From a virus: 29,875 bases of DNA. Numbering within the stretch: position 1 is the stretch's first letter; each line of letters begins with the position of its first letter. Below, one piece after another: positions 1,034 through 21,408 of this stretch. The stretch spans positions 1 to 29,875 of IMG/VR virus record IMGVR_UViG_3300042894_003548; one strand, 5' to 3'. A program made the position numbers and the translations under genes. The notes under the pieces are model-generated. The model did no database searches and was not told the origin of the DNA. It was given only the letters and a program-made list of their open reading frames with translations.

Positions 1034-1777
1034 TTATCGTGGCGCAAACTCTTGTTGGAGTTTGATGTTGTCAAAGAACTCTTTCTTTGTATTGCCATCT
1101 GTGTTAAACGATCCTTTAAGCACTGTAGTCTGCGTAAGGCTAGAGTGTGCCATAATGCCTCGATTCTCACAGCATCCGTGAACAGCTTGAATATAGACTG
1201 CTACATTTTCACTGTCTGTTGCCTTGCTAATTTCTCGGGCAATGTCGTTACAAAGTTCTTCTTGTAGTGTACCACGACGAGCACACCACTGAGCAATGCG
1301 AGTGTACTTGCTAAGGCCAATGAGCTTTTGAGCGGCAATAATCCCGATATAAGCAACGCCACTGACAGGTTGGTGGTGATGACTACACATACTGCGAAGC
1401 TCACTACGGACCACCAGCATTCCTTCATATCTATCTGCTGAGTCATTTGGAAATGCTGTTGCGTCTGGTGCTGGGTCATATCTACCTGCCATTATTTCGT
1501 TAAAGTACATTTTGGCCAGCCGGCGAGCAGTACCCTTGCTGTTGGGATCGGTTTCACGATCAATCAGCAACTTATCTAGCACTTGTTCAAATGCCGGTGT
1601 TGCTTCATCAATAAGTTTTTCTATATCACCTTCCCACAGGTAATCACTGATGTTGTCACCAGCCCAAAACCTTTTACCATCACGCTTCATCTTAAAGCGA
1701 AGATGATCTCCTAGGTAGGCTTCTTGATACCCGCCATCGCCTGTCATTGCGTCTAGTCCTGTTTCTTTGTTTGTCAA
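1034..1777 (-). CDS. folE: GTP cyclohydrolase I
   Basis: Converts GTP to 7,8-dihydroneopterin triphosphate, the first step of both folate and 7-deazaguanine (queuosine-type) synthesis. The zinc site is visible: C131-S-H133-H134 matches the family C-x-H-H motif, and VHGCCENRG (C202) matches the HxCMxxRG block that supplies the third ligand. Length (up to 247 aa) is normal for the family. The upstream start is TTG at 1777, with GGAG 7 bases before it; the first ATG is at 1747 (residue 11) with a weaker site, so the start is uncertain by 10 residues. It leads an operon with four small genes and has its own sigma70-like promoter. With the QueD-like and DpdA-like genes, it is likelier to serve DNA base modification than folate, but both are possible. 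Confidence 0.93.
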   Translation of the reverse strand: MTNKETGLDAMTGDGGYQEAYLGDHLRFKMKRDGKRFWAGDNISDYLWEGDIEKLIDEATPAFEQVLDKLLIDRETDPNSKGTARRLAKMYFNEIMAGRYDPAPDATAFPNDSADRYEGMLVVRSELRSMCSHHHQPVSGVAYIGIIAAQKLIGLSKYTRIAQWCARRGTLQEELCNDIAREISKATDSENVAVYIQAVHGCCENRGIMAHSSLTQTTVLKGSFNTDGNTKKEFFDNIKLQQEFAPR

Positions 1778-4738: not shown

Positions 4739-5090
4739 TTAGATGATCTTGTTTTATTTCTCTTATTCGACAGCCTAGCTTTTCTGCAATAAGGTTCTTG
4801 AGTGCAATGCGAGAATTGTTGTGATTTCTTATTTGTATGGCACGACTGCCTATGTCTGCCAGTGACAGTTCTGATTCTCTTCCAGATTTTAATTCAGCTT
4901 CCAAACTCCAAATTTTTCTGTGTATGTTGCATAGCTGTGCGAACTCGTCCATGACTTGATTAGTATCAAAATTTGACAACTGGCCAGCATAAAAATCCAA
5001 CTCTTCTTGATTGGCTTGAGTTTTTTCAAATTTAAGCAGGGCAATTGCATACCTATCTATCAATTCAATCACAGGAAAAAACACAGTCAT
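4731..5090 (-). CDS. Small polysaccharide-cluster protein, DUF6165-like
   Basis: A 119-residue, mostly helical protein. Features such as ELIDRYAIALLKFEK near the start, NIHRKIWSLEAELKSG in the middle, and IQIRNHNNSRIALKNLIAEK followed by REIKQDH at the end match the pattern I recall for a small family of unknown function that accompanies lipopolysaccharide, capsule and glycosylation genes (DUF6165 or a relative). The IW-x-LE and N-x-x-R-x-x-K-N elements are the most telling. It has no catalytic motif and may be a scaffold or regulatory partner. It overlaps both neighbours (ATGA with the radical SAM gene). The family assignment is from memory. Confidence 0.55.
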   Translation of the reverse strand: MTVFFPVIELIDRYAIALLKFEKTQANQEELDFYAGQLSNFDTNQVMDEFAQLCNIHRKIWSLEAELKSGRESELSLADIGSRAIQIRNHNNSRIALKNLIAEKLGCRIREIKQDHLSE

Positions 5091-6115
5091 AGGTACAAGC
5101 TCTCAATTTTCTTTGGTTCGTTTATTATATTTTGTATTTGTATATTACTAATATTTGGCCTACAAGGTTGGCAAAGCGCAACATTGGTACGATTATATAT
5201 CTCTGTGTGCCGATCGCCCATCCATAAATCACGGAAGTCGCCTGTGTCCCAGTCGGCCAATTCAAACTGTGGATTGCCTTTGCCTTCACAACAGATGTAG
5301 ATCTTGCCGTTGGCACAGAACACAGGAAAGTGATACATTTGATGACATTTTTTATAATTGCGCGGAAGGGTTTTGTTGGTATTGATCCAATGCGGCAATT
5401 GATGTTTTTCACTCAATTGTGTTAACATTGCCAGGTGTTGCTCGGTGATAGGGTGTGCTTGTGAGTTCACAATCACTGGACGGAAGTACAGCATGCGCCC
5501 ACCCACTCGTTTGACCAACGCAAACAGATCATCAAGAGCTTGATAGTTATCATTGAGTGGGTTGAGCAGACATTTGAAATCTACATTGACACCTGCTTCA
5601 ATCAATGCCTGAGCATTGGTTACCACACGGTCAAACAAACTCTTTGCTGTAAGACTTCGGCGTATTTGTTCATACAGGTCTTGTGTGCCTGCATCAATGT
5701 CTATACCGATCCAGGCAATTTTGCGTAATTTCTCAACTGCTATACTATCTAATAGTCGATCTAAGTTTGATCCATTGGTAGTGATGCTGGTCAAAAATCC
5801 CAAGTCAATTGTGTGTTCAATCACATGTTCATATCCTGTCAGCACCGTGGGTTCACCGCCTCCGGGATATGTTATTGTATGTGTGGTGCCATAACTGCGA
5901 GGAGTATGAGCTCGCCATCCAGCCAGCTTGTCCAACAAAGAGATGTATTCGCTGTACTTTTTTTGTACTGGTTGTTCTTTGCGGAAAGTAGCACTGTTGC
6001 AGTAGTAACAATCTTGGTTGCAAACATTGGTCAAATCAATGTCTACCTGTGCAGGCAGCAACTTCATTGTGTCTTTGTTCTGCATCCAGTGGACTAGTTC
6101 AGCATATTGATACAT
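5087..6115 (-). CDS. Radical SAM enzyme with SPASM-like C-terminus
   Basis: The motif CNQDCYYC (C32, C36, C39) binds the radical SAM 4Fe-4S cluster, and GGGEPT follows as the SAM-binding GGE element. The C-terminal part has FCANGKIYICCEGKGNP and a later CQPC, a cysteine pattern like the SPASM/twitch domain that holds auxiliary clusters. Length 342 is usual. Such enzymes modify peptides, sugars or cofactors by radical chemistry; the substrate cannot be read here. It is not a QueE: it is longer and has the extra cysteine domain. The ATG at 6115 lies inside the end of the upstream glycosyltransferase gene (17-base overlap) and has no clear ribosome site. Its position in the sugar cassette suggests sugar modification. 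Confidence 0.88.
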   Translation of the reverse strand: MYQYAELVHWMQNKDTMKLLPAQVDIDLTNVCNQDCYYCNSATFRKEQPVQKKYSEYISLLDKLAGWRAHTPRSYGTTHTITYPGGGEPTVLTGYEHVIEHTIDLGFLTSITTNGSNLDRLLDSIAVEKLRKIAWIGIDIDAGTQDLYEQIRRSLTAKSLFDRVVTNAQALIEAGVNVDFKCLLNPLNDNYQALDDLFALVKRVGGRMLYFRPVIVNSQAHPITEQHLAMLTQLSEKHQLPHWINTNKTLPRNYKKCHQMYHFPVFCANGKIYICCEGKGNPQFELADWDTGDFRDLWMGDRHTEIYNRTNVALCQPCRPNISNIQIQNIINEPKKIESLYL

Positions 6116-10665: not shown

Positions 10666-11171
10666 CTGCATTCATCCTTGGTATATTTAGACCAATCGGT
10701 AAACACTGATCGTTTTTGTAATGTGTGCAGACTATGACACCATACACCCGGATTGGTTGCCGCAAAGTCCTTGTCATCTATTTTAATAGTGGCATTGTAC
10801 CCCAGTTGTCGTATGTAAGGTATCTTGACAGAGATCATGGGAATAAAATTATTGTGCTCACACAGGCCAGATTCTAACAGACCTTCCACTTGCGAAACAT
10901 CAATGTCCAATGTACATTGATATCCTTGATCCAACCATTGTTGAATCATGTTTTCCCAAGGTGTCCAAAACACACTATCGTTGGTGCGTATGCTAGACGG
11001 AAAGCTCATGTTAGCACCGAAGTAAATGTGCTCACAGTCAGCCAGTTGATCTTGTATATCTGTTGCGGATTGTAATCCTACTACAAACAATGTTTTCTTG
11101 CCAAATGCAGGAGTGTGTTCTACTTCTGTTCCAGTAAAGAACTTGACGTTGTTGTGGCCTTCTCTATTCAT
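10662..11171 (-). CDS. Phage protein of unknown function next to dpdA (169 aa)
   Basis: A 169-residue protein with no recognisable family. It alternates hydrophobic strands and helices (KKTLFVVGLQSATDIQDQLA, CEHIYFGANMSF, TLDIDVSQVEGLLES) and ends in a compact Cys/His/Trp-rich tail, GVWCHSLHTLQKRSVFTDWS. The final block feels conserved among T4-like marine phages, but the function is unknown to me. No signal peptide or membrane helix. It sits between the DpdA-like gene and the methyltransferase with ATGA overlaps at both ends, so it is made at matched levels and may take part in the same DNA modification. Confidence 0.75.
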   Translation of the reverse strand: MNREGHNNVKFFTGTEVEHTPAFGKKTLFVVGLQSATDIQDQLADCEHIYFGANMSFPSSIRTNDSVFWTPWENMIQQWLDQGYQCTLDIDVSQVEGLLESGLCEHNNFIPMISVKIPYIRQLGYNATIKIDDKDFAATNPGVWCHSLHTLQKRSVFTDWSKYTKDECR

Positions 11172-12790
11172 TGCTGTTCCTGTTCCAATTGATCTAGTGC
11201 TGTGGTATCTAATTGTACACTATCATCCTGATCTGTGTCAACTTCAGTTTTATCGAAACTGAACAATGCAGTGAACTGTGTTCTGGCATTTACCGTTTTC
11301 TTACCTTTGAAACCACGAGTGCCCACAATGTCCATCCAATATCTATTGTAGTGTTCTATAATGGCCTCTGCACTGTCTCTGTCAGGGGCGGAAAAAATAG
11401 CATCCACAATGTCTTTGAACCGGGCATGATCGCCATTTTCATTCCACATCATTTTGGGCCAGGTGCCAGTATCGTAATCACGATTGGCTCGTTGTACTGA
11501 TTCCAAATGCATCCACACATTGTGACCCATGAGCAAAGCATAACTGAAGCTATCCCATGAAGTTTTGCCCCACTTGCCGTTCTTGTTTTGATCGGGCAAT
11601 ACATCATACATTGTGGGATCTTGAAAGTTTTCTGGTGTAAGTGTAACACCAGGTTTGGCAACACCTGGCTTGTAAATGCAAATGTCTTTCATTTGCAAGT
11701 GTCGGCTAATTGGTGATTCGTCAAAGTGATCAACAAATCCTTCTGCCGCCACAGTTGGACCATAGGGCCGTGTGTCAGTGGAGTACTTTTTGTCATCCAC
11801 AATGGGGCTCATTCGGTAGGACCATTTTTCGTTGTGCGGCAACGAGATTTCGTGATACACCTGACCATTTGCAGTGGCCAAAAACGGACTGGCACAATCA
11901 AACGAGATAGTAAAATCAGGATTGACATATTTTCTCACAGCTCGCTGAATATCAGTGAGCAATACCGCCCACTCCAGTTTGCTTGTGCCCAAGAAGTGCA
12001 TCCAATCATGTTTGCCCTGTTGCAACAAGTTATCATAGCGCAATGCTACCAGGCGTTTGAGCACCAGATGCACATCACACATGTTCTGTCCGCCCATTGA
12101 CCAACCGTTAAAGTGAGTGTCTGGATACTTGACAGGGTCACAGTACTCTTTCATGGTTTGATACCAAGTCTCTGCACTGGTGTGATTGTCACCTTGTAAC
12201 ACATTCAAGAACTTGGCGCCACCATTGGCAACTCCTCGACGATGCTTCATGAAGTATTCATTGTTGAACTTGGTAGCATCCACTGCTTCTTGTAATGTAG
12301 TAATCTGACACGCTTTGCTGGCTTTCTTGTCATGAATAACCCAAGTGGGAATATCTAAGATCATTCCGTAGTCGGCAACATTGTCCAACCAATTAAGAAT
12401 CAGTTCACGCTTCTTTTGAGCTTTGGGACAACCAGAGTTAGCCTTCCAGTCGCCTTCCCACAGGCCTTTGGCAATCTGGAATCCACCTGAGTCGCCAAGA
12501 ATAAAACTGCCCGGCTCACGATTACGAATCATGTCCTCTGACCAGTCCTGCTTGGCCAAATCTAAATTGGCATGCCCACCCGAGTACAATGACCAACGAT
12601 ACGGGAACAGACCTTTTTGACTGTTAAGCCAATTGAGCTGTTCCATATCAGTAATGCCTTGCGGCAATCGTGCAGGATCAACATAATTCTCGTTTCTTTG
12701 TTTGCCCACAAAGGTAGCATAGAAGCCACTGATTGCAGGCAAAAACACAGCATAGTCGTTTTGTTTAGCAGTTAAATTGTCTTGAGTCAT
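11168..12790 (-). CDS. dpdA: DpdA/TGT-like 7-deazaguanine transglycosylase
   Basis: Related to tRNA-guanine transglycosylase; DpdA members exchange guanine in DNA for a 7-deazaguanine. D100-SGGFQ (100-105) matches the TGT substrate pocket, VLQGDN (198-203) the VQGG-type loop, NGWSMGGQ (228-235) the GYAIGG-type loop, and SFDCASPFLATANG the second active-site block, with D298 as candidate nucleophile. The C-terminal zinc cluster of tRNA enzymes (CxCxxC...H) is not seen, which argues for a DNA rather than tRNA enzyme. Length 540 exceeds bacterial TGT (about 375). Residues 506-513 read FTALFSFD, nearly the same as the last eight residues of the DNA polymerase here, followed by an acidic Q/D/E tail. 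It lies in an overlapping operon behind the clamp gene. The DNA role is inferred from family and context. Confidence 0.82.
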   Translation of the reverse strand: MTQDNLTAKQNDYAVFLPAISGFYATFVGKQRNENYVDPARLPQGITDMEQLNWLNSQKGLFPYRWSLYSGGHANLDLAKQDWSEDMIRNREPGSFILGDSGGFQIAKGLWEGDWKANSGCPKAQKKRELILNWLDNVADYGMILDIPTWVIHDKKASKACQITTLQEAVDATKFNNEYFMKHRRGVANGGAKFLNVLQGDNHTSAETWYQTMKEYCDPVKYPDTHFNGWSMGGQNMCDVHLVLKRLVALRYDNLLQQGKHDWMHFLGTSKLEWAVLLTDIQRAVRKYVNPDFTISFDCASPFLATANGQVYHEISLPHNEKWSYRMSPIVDDKKYSTDTRPYGPTVAAEGFVDHFDESPISRHLQMKDICIYKPGVAKPGVTLTPENFQDPTMYDVLPDQNKNGKWGKTSWDSFSYALLMGHNVWMHLESVQRANRDYDTGTWPKMMWNENGDHARFKDIVDAIFSAPDRDSAEAIIEHYNRYWMDIVGTRGFKGKKTVNARTQFTALFSFDKTEVDTDQDDSVQLDTTALDQLEQEQQ

Positions 12791-13119
12791 TGTTGTTCTT
12801 GTTTGACCAGTGCTACCATGATTTCAAGTTTTTCTTGAAGGTCCTTGACGCCTGGGTGTTGCTTGGCCAGTGCGTCAAGCTCTTGTTCTCGTTTGAGTTG
12901 TTGTTGAGCCCACTGCAACGCCTGTTCAGCTTCCTGAGTCAAGCCGATTGATGAAGTTTGTCCCAGCTGTAACCAAACAGCCCCGTCGTTGACTTCTAGT
13001 TGTTGAATGTTTGAGTTGTACCTCACCATGCCACTACCAACAGCGCCTGGACTGATATAAGGTAAACTAGTGGGGGTCACCATGATTGACCCTGAACTTG
13101 AGACAAGATTTTTGATCAT
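12787..13119 (-). CDS. Small virion-type protein with C-terminal coiled coil (110 aa)
   Basis: A 110-residue protein in two parts. The N-terminal half (VGSGMVRYNSNIQQLEVNDG, then AVWLQLG) has the GMVRYNxxxQxLEVxDGxxW pattern common in phage tail fibre and other virion proteins, where it forms a small beta unit. From about residue 58 to the end it is strongly helical with Q/E/L/A heptad-like spacing (EAEQALQWAQQQLKREQELD and onward), suggesting a coiled coil. It starts in a TAATG overlap with the clamp stop and ends in an ATGA overlap with dpdA. A structural role is likely by pattern, although its setting in a replication/modification operon is unusual. Confidence 0.7.
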   Translation of the reverse strand: MIKNLVSSSGSIMVTPTSLPYISPGAVGSGMVRYNSNIQQLEVNDGAVWLQLGQTSSIGLTQEAEQALQWAQQQLKREQELDALAKQHPGVKDLQEKLEIMVALVKQEQQ

Positions 13120-13844
13120 TATTTGCTTTGTGCAGGCAAAATGTAGTTGTATGTGGCAATACCTGAATCCACAGTGATCTTGGCAGCACCGTCGTCACTG
13201 ATACGAATTGTTTTGTCACCGGTCAAACTCAAGATACCAATAAACTGCGAAGCAGGCCAACTCCAGGCTCTTTTGAGTGCACCACCTACCCCTGCATGGA
13301 ACACAAAGTTACCGGCGTGAGTCGAATGATCACCAAAGAAAAACTTCAAGTCGCCGTTTTCAGTTTTGGCCTGAAAGTTTGGCTCTTCTGCATTGGCCTG
13401 TGCCTGCATTTTAAGACGCAGGATTGCGGCCACTTGTGGTTCAAATTCAATGTGCCAGTTGACACCTTTAAACTTGGGAGTTTTCAACTTGTCACTGACC
13501 ACTTCTGAAGTCATGAAGCGATAGTTGTTGCGAAAGTCACCGGCTGCATTTTCAAAAGCAATGCCATCGGGCGATTTATCCGACGCACGATGTGTCATGC
13601 CAAGTTTGGAGTTTTCTTTATACTCCTGCAAGTTCAACAAAATCTTGAGCTTGTTCAAGTTTGGCATGCCAAATGTACCAACAAATTCTGGCACAGGATT
13701 TTTAAATTCACCCTCGACCACGACACTCAGGTCTTCGGCAATACCTACGATACTGGTCACGCTGTCGTCACCAGTGATTTTGATCAAGTCAATAAAGCCG
13801 AGATCATGTGTGTGTTCTACTAAGTCTAAAAGATAATCTTTCAT
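13119..13844 (-). CDS. 45: Sliding clamp (T4 gp45-like)
   Basis: A 241-residue, beta-rich protein close to T4 gp45 length (228). It has the expected repeat of two similar halves: hydrophobic strand pairs ITGDDSVTSIVGIAEDLSVV and FVGTFGMPNLNKLKILLNL in the first, and FIGILSLTGDKTIRISDDGA with a final TYNYILPA in the second. NLNKLKILLNL and WPASQFIGILSLTG occupy the places of the clamp's inner helices/outer strands. Sequence identity to T4 is low, so the call rests on layout and on the location close to the polymerase gene. It has its own sigma70-like promoter and a strong AGGAGT ribosome site 6 bases before the ATG, as expected for a clamp needed early. It is followed by an overlapping gene (TAATG). 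Confidence 0.65.
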   Translation of the reverse strand: MKDYLLDLVEHTHDLGFIDLIKITGDDSVTSIVGIAEDLSVVVEGEFKNPVPEFVGTFGMPNLNKLKILLNLQEYKENSKLGMTHRASDKSPDGIAFENAAGDFRNNYRFMTSEVVSDKLKTPKFKGVNWHIEFEPQVAAILRLKMQAQANAEEPNFQAKTENGDLKFFFGDHSTHAGNFVFHAGVGGALKRAWSWPASQFIGILSLTGDKTIRISDDGAAKITVDSGIATYNYILPAQSK

Positions 13845-13894: not shown

Positions 13895-14833
13895 CTGTTT
13901 TGGCATTATTTTTGCCATGTTTTGTCCACCTCGGAGACTCACAATGTCTCCAGGGCGTTTAAACTCGAACCAGGCCGCATTGGCTTCCAGTGTGTTTTGA
14001 TATTCAAATTCAAACCCAATTGATTCAGCATATGATCTTATTCGACCTCCTGGTGTGTAACACATAAAACTCTTTTCGGCCAATATCACACCCGAAGCAT
14101 GTTCACACTCGTTGTAGGTAAAAATAATTCTGCCGCCAGGTCGCAGTTTTTCATATAATTCATCAAGGTATCTGCAGATAACACCAAGTGGTTTGTAATT
14201 GAAATAATTGTAGGCAAACACAAACCCAAATTGTCGGTTGGGCAATAGAGTCATCAGTTCGCCATCGGCCCTGTCATCGATGGTATAAGGGCGTAGTCTT
14301 TGTTGATACTCTGCAGAAAATTTGGTCATGGCAGGCGCCAACAAATCCTCATGTTGATCCACAAGGTATAACGGATCCATTGGAACCAGGTCCTCAATAA
14401 ATGATTCTTGTCCTGGACGGAACAACAATCCGGGCAGTCTCCAATCAGTGTATCGCTTGATTCTAAACTCTAGCTCTATACGATTCTGATCGCTGACACT
14501 GAGTTTGCGGTTTAAAATGTACTCATTGGTTTCATAGCACATTTCATCCTCATACAGGCGACGACTTTGTGCATAGTACTCAGGTTCCTGCTGTTCAATC
14601 ATTTTTAGCAGTTCAGCTTTGAGCACACTCAATGTTGTGTCAAATTGTGCAACCGCCCGATTGATATTGTCTAGATCAGTGTGTAAATCATTGGCAAGAC
14701 TGCCTACCTGAAGCGAATGTTCAGCAACAGAATGTAATATAGATTCAAATCTGTGCTTGGCATCAACAAAGTTAGGCTGTTGTGCGTCTTTGTTTAGATG
14801 ATTTAGATAATCGACAATGTTACTGAGTTTCAT
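13889..14833 (-). CDS. Methyltransferase-like phage protein with helical N-terminus
   Basis: A 314-residue protein. Residues 1 to about 130 are helical with a likely coiled coil (SLQVGSLANDLHTDLDNINR and onward). The rest resembles a class I methyltransferase core in its later strands: GFVFAYNYFNYKPLGVICRY followed by LDELYEKLRPGGRIIFTYNE, where LRPGGR-hydrophobic-F is the classic motif after strand 5. A clear glycine-rich SAM loop is not obvious; YLVDQHEDLLAPAM may be the acidic strand-2 position. It may therefore be inactive or unusual. It overlaps the polymerase stop (ATGA) and so is produced together with gp43. The substrate is unknown. Confidence 0.65.
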   Translation of the reverse strand: MKLSNIVDYLNHLNKDAQQPNFVDAKHRFESILHSVAEHSLQVGSLANDLHTDLDNINRAVAQFDTTLSVLKAELLKMIEQQEPEYYAQSRRLYEDEMCYETNEYILNRKLSVSDQNRIELEFRIKRYTDWRLPGLLFRPGQESFIEDLVPMDPLYLVDQHEDLLAPAMTKFSAEYQQRLRPYTIDDRADGELMTLLPNRQFGFVFAYNYFNYKPLGVICRYLDELYEKLRPGGRIIFTYNECEHASGVILAEKSFMCYTPGGRIRSYAESIGFEFEYQNTLEANAAWFEFKRPGDIVSLRGGQNMAKIMPKQL

Positions 14834-17490
14834 TCAAATGAGAACAATGAAGTAAAAGTATTTTCTGTGTTGGTAGCACTTGCAAGATCCCAATCCAACA
14901 CACCCAACAAGTTGTCGATCTTTTGATCCACCACAGTTGCTTCCATCAGCCCATCGTCAAACGGCAGTTCAACAAACCACTGTGGCAATCGCTGTTCATC
15001 TGTGGGATAACCAATTGATGTCCACCCGAGTGCGTTAGACTTGAGCTTGCACACAATGGTTTTCATGCCGTCTACAATCTGCATTGAGTAATTGTCCGAG
15101 TTCATCCGGCGCATGTTATTCCAGTTTAGTGCGGCTCGCACATGCCCGGGCATGTTGGCTTTGCCTTGTGCGGATTCTGCGGCTGAATACTTGGTCAAGT
15201 TGTTCACACGCTTGGGACTACCTTTCTCCCAACCAGGTCGCTCTTTGAACTCATACTTGAATTCTCTAATGCGTTCAATGATTTCATCTCGTTGAATACC
15301 AGCTAGCACTTTATTTAGAATTTCCAACAAGAACTCTTGAATAACCTTGGGCGTATCTGAACGCTTGAGATCCAGGCCCATGGCTTTGGTTTTGCCAATT
15401 TTGCCATCCACATCCAGTCGCTTGCCTTCCAGATCAATGATGTTCACAGCATAGCGTTTCTTTGTAATAAACAAACTACGGTCTGCTACCAGTTCGCGAC
15501 CGGCTGCAATCAATCCGCCCATTTCTCGCGGACAATGAAATGCCTGTTCCATAAAGCCTGGAAAGCTCTCATTGGCCTGATCAGCAATTGAATCATACAA
15601 GGCAATGCAGGTTTCTTTCGACCAGGCCATACGCCCTTCTTCAACTTCTTTCTTTAGCACAGGCCATGCAGTAAAATAACAACTGTCAGTGTCACCGTAA
15701 ATGATGGCTTTGCCAGTGTGATCATATTCTCCTGTGATGCATTCGTTGATAAATGCATCCATGTGCTTGGCAATGCTACGACCAGTGAGAGTGGTTGACT
15801 GTCCAATACGCTTGTCAAAGAATCTACAACCTGGATTCAAAATAGCACCATACAGGCTATTCAAGTTAATTTTTTTGACCAACTGTCGCTTGTCCCAAAA
15901 AGCAATTTCCTTAACATCCTTGGCATCTTTTTTCTTGGCCTGCAATTCCTTGCGTTCAGCATACCAGCGTTCTAGCAAGCCTGGAATTACACCCTTTTTC
16001 TCGTAAGTAAAGATAGTGCCATTGGCCGACAGTATCCAAGGTTGATTGCTGTCAAACATCTTGGTCCAAATTTCAGCTGCCGAGTGTGTGCTTTCGCCAC
16101 CGTCTTGCCAGTCAATGGTGATCTCTGTGCCACGCTGTTGTTCCATCACAGCAGTATACTCCAAGGAAGCAAACAAGCCCTCCCATGCTGCCGCAAAGCT
16201 CATGCCCTTGCTAATGTTTTGTTTGATCAAATGATCAGTCATGATTGGGCGCAGTTGCCCTACAATGGTTTCCGGACCCATGTTCAACGCACGAATTGCT
16301 GATGGATACAGACTGTTGATGTCAACTGATCCAATCCATTCGTGTATACCTTTCTTGGGATAGGCAACATACGCACCGGCTGCCTGATTCTCCTCACTGT
16401 CGTTGCGTTGTTTACGATTGGGCACAACCATGCCACGCTCATGAGCTTCATTGATAATGGCCTGCTCAGTCACTGCTACGGCACCCATTGTGGTCTGCAA
16501 TAGTACTGTGTTGGCATGCGCCAATTCACTGGCCAAGCTCAAGAACTGTAACTTGCGATCTAATTTGTGTACCAACAAAGTATCTTGACGATTGTACTCA
16601 ATGAACTTTTTAAAGTGTTGATTGTACAACTGATCTAGTGTGCCTTCAAACTGTGTCTTGCGCTCATTAAGTTCGTATTCGCCAATGGCATCCAAACTGT
16701 ACGAATGACGCTCTTCATATGTGTACTTGCGATACAATTGCATATAGTCCATATGCACACGACCAATCAAATCATATGTTTGGCTCTCACTGCCAAAGCG
16801 TTCAAACATACGCATCTTGGGCAGTTGTCCCCACAAGCAGAATTTTCGTGTGTCGTCTTTGCTGAGCACACGAGTACATCTGTTGATGGTATAGGGAATA
16901 TCGTAGCCTTCTGAGTTCCAACCAGTCAACACATCTGCATCATCTATGATGTCTAAAAACATCTTGATCATGTCTTCTTCTTGTTCAAACAAGAAAGTAT
17001 TGTCAAACTCAGCTACCAACTCTTGCGCAGTTTCCCAACTTAGGCCTTTGGGCGGTACTGCCAGTGTGATCAACTGACCCAACCAATCTAGATAAACTGA
17101 AATAGCAGTGATAGGGTTGAATGGATCTTCAACTGGAGAGAATCCACGGTCCTTGTCAAAGTCCACTTCAATGTCGAAAAATGCTGTGTGCAGTTCAGGG
17201 GCGTCTTGGTCTTTGTAGTTTTCTTCCAAGCAACGAAAAATAGGATTGATATCACTCTCATACAATTGCTTGCTGGAGTGCATGCGAACTTCTTTGCGGA
17301 ATTCCTTGTTGTTGCGTGTGCTGAATCTACTTACAGAATTGCCATAGATGCTTTTGAACTTACCTCTAGGGTCGTCATAGTAAAAGATATAGTTGGCTGG
17401 ATATTCTTGATATCGGCGAATACCATCTCGACGCTCAACAACATGAATACGATCGTGCTCACGATCAAATAGTGCGTCAATATAACTCAA
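14830..17490 (-). CDS. 43: DNA polymerase, family B (T4 gp43-like)
   Basis: Replicative polymerase with proofreading. Exonuclease motifs: FFDIEVDFD (D106, E108), GWNSEGYD (191-198) and EYNRQD (Y299, D303). Polymerase motifs: A VDINSLYPS (D390), B KKINLNSLYG (K540 to G548), C YGDTDS (D600, D602), and a later KKRY block. All catalytic residues are present; 886 residues is close to T4 gp43 (898). The start is TTG at 17490: the frame is closed by TAA 15 bases upstream, AAGGTGAT precedes it, and the next ATG lies at codon 70 within conserved sequence. TTG overlaps the upstream TGA (TTGA). The last eight residues, FTSLFSFE, resemble the clamp-binding tails of T4-type polymerases. Confidence 0.97.
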   Translation of the reverse strand: MSYIDALFDREHDRIHVVERRDGIRRYQEYPANYIFYYDDPRGKFKSIYGNSVSRFSTRNNKEFRKEVRMHSSKQLYESDINPIFRCLEENYKDQDAPELHTAFFDIEVDFDKDRGFSPVEDPFNPITAISVYLDWLGQLITLAVPPKGLSWETAQELVAEFDNTFLFEQEEDMIKMFLDIIDDADVLTGWNSEGYDIPYTINRCTRVLSKDDTRKFCLWGQLPKMRMFERFGSESQTYDLIGRVHMDYMQLYRKYTYEERHSYSLDAIGEYELNERKTQFEGTLDQLYNQHFKKFIEYNRQDTLLVHKLDRKLQFLSLASELAHANTVLLQTTMGAVAVTEQAIINEAHERGMVVPNRKQRNDSEENQAAGAYVAYPKKGIHEWIGSVDINSLYPSAIRALNMGPETIVGQLRPIMTDHLIKQNISKGMSFAAAWEGLFASLEYTAVMEQQRGTEITIDWQDGGESTHSAAEIWTKMFDSNQPWILSANGTIFTYEKKGVIPGLLERWYAERKELQAKKKDAKDVKEIAFWDKRQLVKKINLNSLYGAILNPGCRFFDKRIGQSTTLTGRSIAKHMDAFINECITGEYDHTGKAIIYGDTDSCYFTAWPVLKKEVEEGRMAWSKETCIALYDSIADQANESFPGFMEQAFHCPREMGGLIAAGRELVADRSLFITKKRYAVNIIDLEGKRLDVDGKIGKTKAMGLDLKRSDTPKVIQEFLLEILNKVLAGIQRDEIIERIREFKYEFKERPGWEKGSPKRVNNLTKYSAAESAQGKANMPGHVRAALNWNNMRRMNSDNYSMQIVDGMKTIVCKLKSNALGWTSIGYPTDEQRLPQWFVELPFDDGLMEATVVDQKIDNLLGVLDWDLASATNTENTFTSLFSFE

Positions 17491-20251: not shown

Positions 20252-20968
20252 TTATCGTTCTTCGATGTAATCTGCAGATTGATCTTTTTGGGCTCTGCGA
20301 GCTTTGAATAGTTCGCATGCCATGGCAGCATCGTCAACGCTTTTAAATCTGCTGGGCAGACTGCGACCTTTGCGACGGATTTCAAAACCTGCTCCTTCGT
20401 CGCCGTGAATTTCAAACATGATACCCGGTCCACATTCCATGGTTTTTACAGGAGCCTGTGGTTGTGCCAATGCACTGTCAACATGATCTTCAATGTCATG
20501 CACAGTTTCAGGATCAGTTAGTTCATAATCATTTTCTTCAAGTTCATCATCAGCTGAGTCAGACTTGGTCTGAGTTCCAGGCTTGCTGGGGTTTTTATCA
20601 GTTACACCATCAACTGCTTTGTCTTTGAGATCACTGTCAGCTTTGACTTTTTGTTCCAGCTGGTCAAGATAATGTGTCAGGTCTTTCTTGACCTTGCTCA
20701 ACATATCTTCTTCAATTTCTGCCATGGCTTCTGACAGGGCATTACCGTGAGGCTCGACACTTTCATCTGCACCCACAGCATATCCTGCCATTGGATGCTT
20801 GGGATCTTTTTTAGAGCCAAGTACTTTTATACCATGTGGTTTAAACAGCGCAGGCAGTTGTGGTACTGATTTTTGTTGTGCGTTTAGTCCACTCTTGACA
20901 GTGGTTGGAGTAATTTTATTCTCCAACATTGTTAATCGTTCTAGTATTGATCTAATATCGTTGCTCAT
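20252..20968 (-). CDS. Acidic virion-type phage protein (238 aa)
   Basis: A 238-residue protein with an N-terminal short coiled coil (ILERLTMLENKI), a Lys/Pro region (LFKPHGIKVLGSKKDPKHPM), an acidic low-complexity middle (about 125-160) and a C-terminal compact domain (GPGIMFEIHGDEGAGFEIRR with SLPSRFKSVDDAAMACELFK). NALSEAMAEIEED contains L-S-E-A, which fits the T4 prohead protease pattern, so it may be processed. The overall look, and a start resembling hypothetical proteins of T4-like marine phages, suggest a head-associated protein, but there is no direct proof. It is coupled to dps by an ATGA overlap. Confidence 0.68.
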   Translation of the reverse strand: MSNDIRSILERLTMLENKITPTTVKSGLNAQQKSVPQLPALFKPHGIKVLGSKKDPKHPMAGYAVGADESVEPHGNALSEAMAEIEEDMLSKVKKDLTHYLDQLEQKVKADSDLKDKAVDGVTDKNPSKPGTQTKSDSADDELEENDYELTDPETVHDIEDHVDSALAQPQAPVKTMECGPGIMFEIHGDEGAGFEIRRKGRSLPSRFKSVDDAAMACELFKARRAQKDQSADYIEER

Positions 20969-21408
20969 GCTCGCTCGTCTTTCAAGAAACTTCTCAGCAT
21001 CCAGCCATGCTTTTGTTGAGCATCAATGCGTTCAGCTATAAAATTAGCAATGCCTTGTTGATTTTCTTGTTCAGCAGTGGCAAATGTTTCGTTGAGTAGA
21101 TTCAGCAGTTGGTTGTTATTGGCCAACAGTTCTTCGATCATGAGGCGAGCACGAGGGATCTTGGTTTGTCCTTCGATAATTGAAAGTTCACTAAAGCGTT
21201 CGTAACTGCCAGGTGCGTAATCACCTAGTGCTCTAATGTATTCCGCTGTTCGGTCTATACTATTATCATAGACTTCTTCGTATAGGTTGCCAAAAAACTC
21301 GTGCAGTTGTGCGAAGTCTGGGCCTTCCACATTCCAATGGAACAACTGGGCCTTGAGACTGAACGCATATTCAGTTGCTAATAGAATTTTTAAACTGTCC
21401 GCGAGCAT
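20965..21408 (-). CDS. dps: Dps-like ferritin-family protein
   Basis: A 147-residue four-helix protein of the Dps family (DNA protection during starvation; oxidises and stores iron). The ferroxidase pattern is present: FHWNVEGPDFAQLHEFF gives H24 and H36, and D52-RTA-E56 in NSIDRTAEYIRALG supplies the acidic ligands. Length is typical. There is no long Lys-rich N-terminal tail, so DNA binding may be weak. The ATG at 21408 has AAGGA 6 bases upstream, and the gene begins inside the end of the upstream gene (38-base overlap). In a phage it could guard DNA from oxidative damage in the infected cell or within the virion; the neighbouring virion-type genes leave both open. Confidence 0.88.
   Translation of the reverse strand: MLADSLKILLATEYAFSLKAQLFHWNVEGPDFAQLHEFFGNLYEEVYDNSIDRTAEYIRALGDYAPGSYERFSELSIIEGQTKIPRARLMIEELLANNNQLLNLLNETFATAEQENQQGIANFIAERIDAQQKHGWMLRSFLKDERA

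Follow-up and report, generated by a model that had tools for sequence, protein, structure and literature searches.

The window, that is, the whole stretch of 29,875 nucleotides analysed here (viral record IMGVR_UViG_3300042894_003548), carries on its minus strand the genes for a DpdA-like base-exchange enzyme of 540 amino acids (positions 11168-12790), a sliding clamp of the PCNA/gp45 type of 241 amino acids (13119-13844) and a T4 gp43-related family B DNA polymerase of 886 amino acids (14830-17490). The clamp gene lies two genes upstream of the DpdA-like gene, with an ORF of 110 amino acids in between, and an ORF of 314 amino acids separates it from the polymerase gene. An earlier, sequence-only reading of this DNA had placed both enzymes next to a clamp gene, which holds as to proximity but not as to direct adjacency, since one ORF intervenes on either side.

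The polymerase was assigned by its domains (PF00136 and PF03104; phrog_262, E 2.7e-195) and shows homology to RB69 gp43. The clamp ORF belongs to PHROG 12062, a family of unknown function, and Pfam and PHROGs were uninformative for it. Its AlphaFold model (pLDDT 95.7) matched PCNA in Foldseek (E 1.7e-11) and in VIA (Z 18.1, rmsd 3.5 over 224 residues). Among the fold matches listed, all of them PCNAs, neither RB69 nor T4 gp45 occurred, and a closer tie to gp45 is possible.

For the DpdA-like protein, Pfam and PHROGs gave no family at E<=0.001 and nothing informative at E<=10, and a PDB sequence search gave no family either; its identity is therefore taken from the fold, and the subfamily seems to be undescribed in the Pfam and PHROGs libraries. 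The AlphaFold model (pLDDT 91.5) comprises a domain with the tRNA-guanine transglycosylase (TGT) fold at residues 11 to about 450, followed by a C-terminal extension and a disordered tail. Foldseek matched the model to TGT (E 4.5e-7, probability 1.00), and VIA aligned its residues 11-449 with the Thermotoga maritima TGT (Z 18.9, rmsd 4.3 over 306 residues), in agreement with the DpdA-like assignment made before. G99, D100, S101, G102, G103 and Q105, which form a DSGGFQ-type motif, together with D298 and S301 are invariant in 79 DpdA sequences; by analogy, the DSGGFQ-type residues and the second aspartate are putative catalytic residues.

The window also encodes GTP cyclohydrolase I (FolE; 1034-1777, minus strand; PF01227, E 6.6e-39) and a radical SAM enzyme (5087-6115, minus strand; PF04055, E 7.5e-13) that is weakly QueE-like (phrog_2076, E 0.004). 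FolE catalyses the first step of 7-deazaguanine synthesis. Each of the nine related genomes tested (G001-G006, W01, W02 and W03) has genes for both FolE and QueD. A gene for QueC, by contrast, was detected in Vibrio phage 2.275.O (W03) alone, and the jumbo phages G001-G006, W01 and W02 may therefore insert a base other than preQ0 or rely on the host for it. A further gene of the window (20965-21408, minus strand) encodes a Ferritin/Dps-like protein (PF00210, E 7.4e-24; phrog_3636, DNA binding protein).

A peptide shared by the DpdA-like protein and the polymerase

Residues 506-513 of the DpdA-like protein, FTALFSFD (11252-11275, minus strand), resemble the C-terminal clamp-binding-type motif of the polymerase, FTSLFSFE (14833-14856, minus strand), which directly precedes the stop codon. 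The two octapeptides are identical at six of eight positions and both mismatches are conservative, which bears out the likeness seen in the sequence-only reading, where the strand was left unstated. When the polymerase tail was searched against the window proteome (32 proteins, 8138 amino acids), this was the top 8-mer match, and an equally good one arose in 6 of 1000 composition-preserving shuffles. The coding DNA of the two peptides is identical at 17 of 24 nucleotides, with different codons and unrelated flanks, and recent copying at the DNA level between the two genes was therefore rejected.

The AlphaFold model has pLDDT <50 at residues 494-507 and 509-525, which span the motif, and a low-confidence helix at residues 502-509. 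Burial of the peptide in the fold would have spoken against a role in binding; instead, it lies in a predicted disordered segment. The acidic flexible tail that was expected after the motif is present at residues 514-540 (11171-11251, minus strand) and is mostly of low confidence in the model, the exception being residues 529-539, for which a short helix is predicted. Across 79 DpdA sequences, F506 is conserved in 86%, L509 in 77% and F510 in 92%, whereas neighbouring positions mostly reach 20-50%; F510 hardly varies across an alignment that extends to members of about 30% identity. The position of the motif varies among relatives: in some it is internal, with an acidic tail after it, and in others it forms the very C-terminus. 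By conservation and predicted disorder, FTALFSFD is thus assigned as a linear motif.

Match to the polymerase tail of the same phage

We read the tails of DpdA and polymerase in about 80 close relatives, 80 divergent ones and three cultured phages; used as single queries, the Vibrio and the PA5oct DpdA retrieved nothing from the viral contigs, and an alignment query succeeded. In both the close and the divergent relatives the DpdA tail resembles the tail of the phage's own polymerase, so that the matching copies anticipated for other phage DpdAs do occur. For example, Vibrio phage 2.275.O has a DpdA ending in NNDLFGW and a polymerase ending in NTDLFDW, and PA5oct has FNSLFDV in DpdA and a polymerase ending in FDSLFGW. 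Among the viral contigs, the pairs of DpdA and polymerase, in this order, are MNEFFEF and MQQFFEF (locus L158), LNEFFEF and LQAFFEF (L164), and FKKFFSP and FNKFFKF (L197).

Scored with a matrix derived from the polymerase tails of the same loci, on which the clamp motif of T4 gp55 scores poorly, the C-terminal 75 amino acids of DpdA hold the highest-scoring peptide of the whole protein in 114 of 120 distinct loci; in the other six, the C-terminal score is not above that of the protein's own body. The median DpdA score is attained by 0.1% of 891 control C-termini, and a few loci carry weak variants of the motif (FGVHF, VHDIF, FTKTF and FVSSLW). In whole-proteome rankings, polymerase and DpdA take places 1 and 2 in PA5oct, 1 and 3 in G001, and 1 and 4 in G002, and the weaker places 4 and 7 in Vibrio phage 2.275.O. 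Ends of the form LFx[FWY], with at most two residues after it, occur in just one to three proteins per genome. The genes for clamp and DpdA lie on the same strand within 1.4 kb of each other, with a median gap of 4 bp, in all 161 loci where both were found.

On the polymerase tree, 70 of 72 phages have the same state of the core (LF or FF) in both proteins. The switch from LF to FF in the polymerase has three independent origins, two of which are matched by DpdA, and with only three independent changes a sign test cannot be significant. A partial Mantel test with overall relatedness removed gave r 0.20, a value reached in none of 500 permutations. Taken together, the matched switches and the Mantel correlation support co-variation of the DpdA and polymerase tails but fall short of proving repeated coevolution.

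Some loci of the collection depart from the common arrangement. In Sinorhizobium phage Phosso, dpdA (L083:5989-7638) is about 175 kb away from the polymerase and clamp genes, yet its product ends in VEGLF; the DpdAs of Phosso kin (L153 and L154) end in IIGGIFS, and the Phosso type represents a weaker version of the motif. The polymerase gene of PA5oct (L082:1605-6831) is split by a Hef-like endonuclease, and those of L079, L188 and L189, also interrupted by intein- or homing-endonuclease-like sequence, end in a VTEDHS-type, Hint-like sequence.

An independent case in the 9g-type DpdAs

The DpdA of phage 9g puts preQ0 into DNA (PMC6884629). Phage 9g encodes a different, DnaN-like clamp beside dpdA, and this gene order is shared by most of the cultured relatives examined. 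The 9g-type DpdAs end in beta-clamp motifs such as RVQELF, EQMELF, DQPGLF, RQRRLF and DQIGLF, to be compared with the bacterial beta-clamp binding consensus QL(S/D)LF (PMC9690074). All 12 sequences from cultured phages share the terminal LF, and an LF-like end is found in 72 of 73 distinct relatives from viral contigs (strict QxxLF in 35, QxLF in 24). In every one of the 70 loci of this type where a clamp gene was found, it adjoins dpdA. Of 1811 other ORFs from these loci, 29 fit a looser pattern, many of them belonging to one conserved family that ends in LQxHKILG.

Each of the two DpdA subfamilies thus bears the type of motif that belongs to the clamp class encoded in its phages. The DpdA of Edwardsiella phage ZHS (L260:1477-2277) ends in RKQSLW, perhaps a variant of the beta-clamp motif, and a beta-subunit gene is located about 1.4 kb downstream.

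DpdAs without the motif

The DpdA2 of Vibrio phage nt-1, which is not encoded beside a clamp or a polymerase, showed no clamp-type tail on inspection; the DNA of this phage bears the modification at low levels (PMC6884629). A clamp-type tail is likewise absent from four actinophage DpdAs, which are encoded beside ParB genes and not beside a clamp. One of these actinophages, Hedgerow, is a close relative of Rosebush, in which about 28% of G is modified (PMC6884629). Loss of the motif with retention of modification, named beforehand as an observation that would weigh against the tether, is thus seen in part, in nt-1 and, by way of Hedgerow and its relative Rosebush, among the actinophages. Modification of DNA therefore does not in general depend on a tether.

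Proposed mechanism and alternative explanations

The tails and gene order support the sequence-only reading of a base-exchange enzyme tethered to the clamp. It is highly probable that the DpdA of the window is held on the clamp through FTALFSFD, with base exchange probably taking place along with replication. Somewhat less firmly, though still as the likelier course, each lineage would use the motif of its own clamp class (FxxLFxF for the PCNA/gp45 type, QxxLF for the DnaN-like type), so that the exchange would occur at the replication fork or close behind it. We infer the binding to the clamp, the co-replicative timing that would link modification to newly made DNA, a DNA rather than tRNA substrate in this phage and a benefit to the phage.

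The F-x-x-L-F core of FTALFSFD would occupy the hydrophobic pocket of the PCNA/gp45-type clamp in the manner of the C-terminal peptide of the polymerase, and the flexible linker would give the TGT domain access to DNA that has just left the clamp. Several equivalent pockets are available on a clamp ring, so that DpdA could accompany the polymerase or alternate with it. Guanine would then be exchanged for 7-deazaguanine during synthesis or soon after it.

Clamp binding alone does not mean coupling to replication, as the clamp motifs of T4 gp55 and gp33 serve transcription (PMC2988020). Binding of the DpdA motif to the clamp could thus serve chiefly for competition with the polymerase, or for action at nicks or at sites of repair or late transcription, an explanation that we regard as unlikely but as the most serious competitor. 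It gains from the alpha-glucosyltransferase (alpha-GT) of T4, which binds gp45 by an interaction judged not to decide the amount of glucosylation, levels being set mostly by expression (PMC13216743); this is a warning for the functional step proposed for DpdA. However, DpdA is a base-modifying enzyme by its fold and is encoded in the company of the clamp and polymerase genes, which favours action at replication.

A phage tRNA-modifying TGT, with a clamp motif that serves something else, is improbable. Its fold matches are indeed tRNA-guanine transglycosylases, and the DNA substrate of this subfamily is deduced; however, a DNA substrate would account for the motif and for the order of the clamp and polymerase genes, FolE and QueD are encoded alongside in every genome tested, and the DpdAs of 9g, CAjan and nt-1 are tied to DNA modification (PMC6884629).

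It is still less probable that the peptide serves the structure or dimerisation of DpdA and converged with the polymerase tail through its hydrophobic residues. TGTs are dimers, a hydrophobic FxxLF could cap the fold or mediate oligomers, and the low-confidence helix at residues 502-509 would fit such a role. Against this, the segment has pLDDT <50, the peptide shifts from an internal position to the extreme C-terminus, it tracks the polymerase tail, and the 9g-type proteins end in their own clamp-class motif instead. Finally, chance or compositional likeness of two hydrophobic C-terminal stretches is strongly disfavoured, for although about 0.6% of shuffled window proteomes yield an equally good 8-mer, the motif recurs with matching variants in 114 of 120 loci, and control C-termini hardly ever attain the median DpdA score.

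Other candidate clamp clients and implications

Directly after DpdA, Vibrio phage 2.275.O encodes gp469 (L084:9723-10835), an amidoligase-like protein (PF12224, E 0.00018, just under the cut-off) that starts with MFNELFDF, the top polymerase-tail-like peptide of the proteome of this phage; it is possibly another clamp client that acts after DpdA. A 74-amino-acid cysteine-containing protein of the same phage (MG592671.1, 118713-118937, in L091) ends in LSSLFEW. Ends of this type occur in three of its proteins only, the other two being the polymerase and DpdA, and the small protein is a possible clamp client by its end. The N-terminal FQALFDF or FDALFKF of neighbouring genes in L018, L020, L049 and L057 was not taken to mark a clamp client, the protein being a DegT aminotransferase-like fragment; its first residues do, however, fall outside the profile match.

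If the clamp-tethered reading is correct, the tether would deliver DpdA to newly made DNA, and it would account for the location of dpdA beside clamp and polymerase genes in two phage groups. It bears on how phages modify whole genomes fast enough against restriction and whether host DNA is spared. The tether would be addressable by two or three point mutations in coliphage CAjan, which grows in laboratory E. coli and for which a deletion of dpdA has been published (PMC6884629), and the motif offers a sequence signature for finding further clamp-riding DNA-modifying enzymes.

Comparison with known systems

Clamp-binding motifs, DpdA itself and one phage DNA-modifying enzyme that binds its clamp have been described before. 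In the openly accessible journal papers searched, no report was found of a DpdA with a clamp motif that fits, in each of two lineages, the clamp class of the phage. In T4, the tails of gp43, gp55 and gp33 bind the gp45 clamp (PMC2988020). The tails of gp43 (SLDFLFG) and gp55 (SLDFLYEAND) have the same spacing as the DpdA motif, and the polymerase motif of the window takes the same position as the gp43 end, in line with the T4-type form ascribed to it earlier. Like these proteins of T4 and RB69, the DpdA of the window carries, at the end of a flexible linker, a short peptide of hydrophobic and acidic residues, and gp55 sets a precedent for an unrelated protein that shares the polymerase motif and in which the motif is functional when internal (PMC2988020). 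However, the proteins that share the motif there are transcription factors, whereas here it is a DNA base-exchange enzyme with the core FxxLFx[F/W].

T4 alpha-GT sets a precedent as a phage DNA-modifying enzyme linked to the sliding clamp, its binding to gp45 having been reported by Sommer (2004) and confirmed by pull-down (PMC13216743); for DpdA, the binding is predicted. Unlike DpdA, alpha-GT glucosylates hydroxymethylcytosine and has another fold and chemistry, and no polymerase-like tail was found when it was checked for one.

The 9g-type DpdA resembles the protein of the window as a TGT-family enzyme encoded next to clamp and polymerase genes and having a tail with a clamp motif; it differs in its length of about 317 amino acids, its separate subfamily, its DnaN-like clamp and its QxxLF-type motif. 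BLAST with the DpdA-like protein of the window did not find the 9g-type DpdA, and the paper on the latter makes no mention of a clamp (PMC6884629). Bacterial beta-clamp binding proteins (QL[S/D]LF) follow the same motif logic, with the motif at the C-terminus as in the 9g-type tails (PMC9690074), whereas the DpdA motif of the window is of the PCNA/gp45 type rather than QxxLF.
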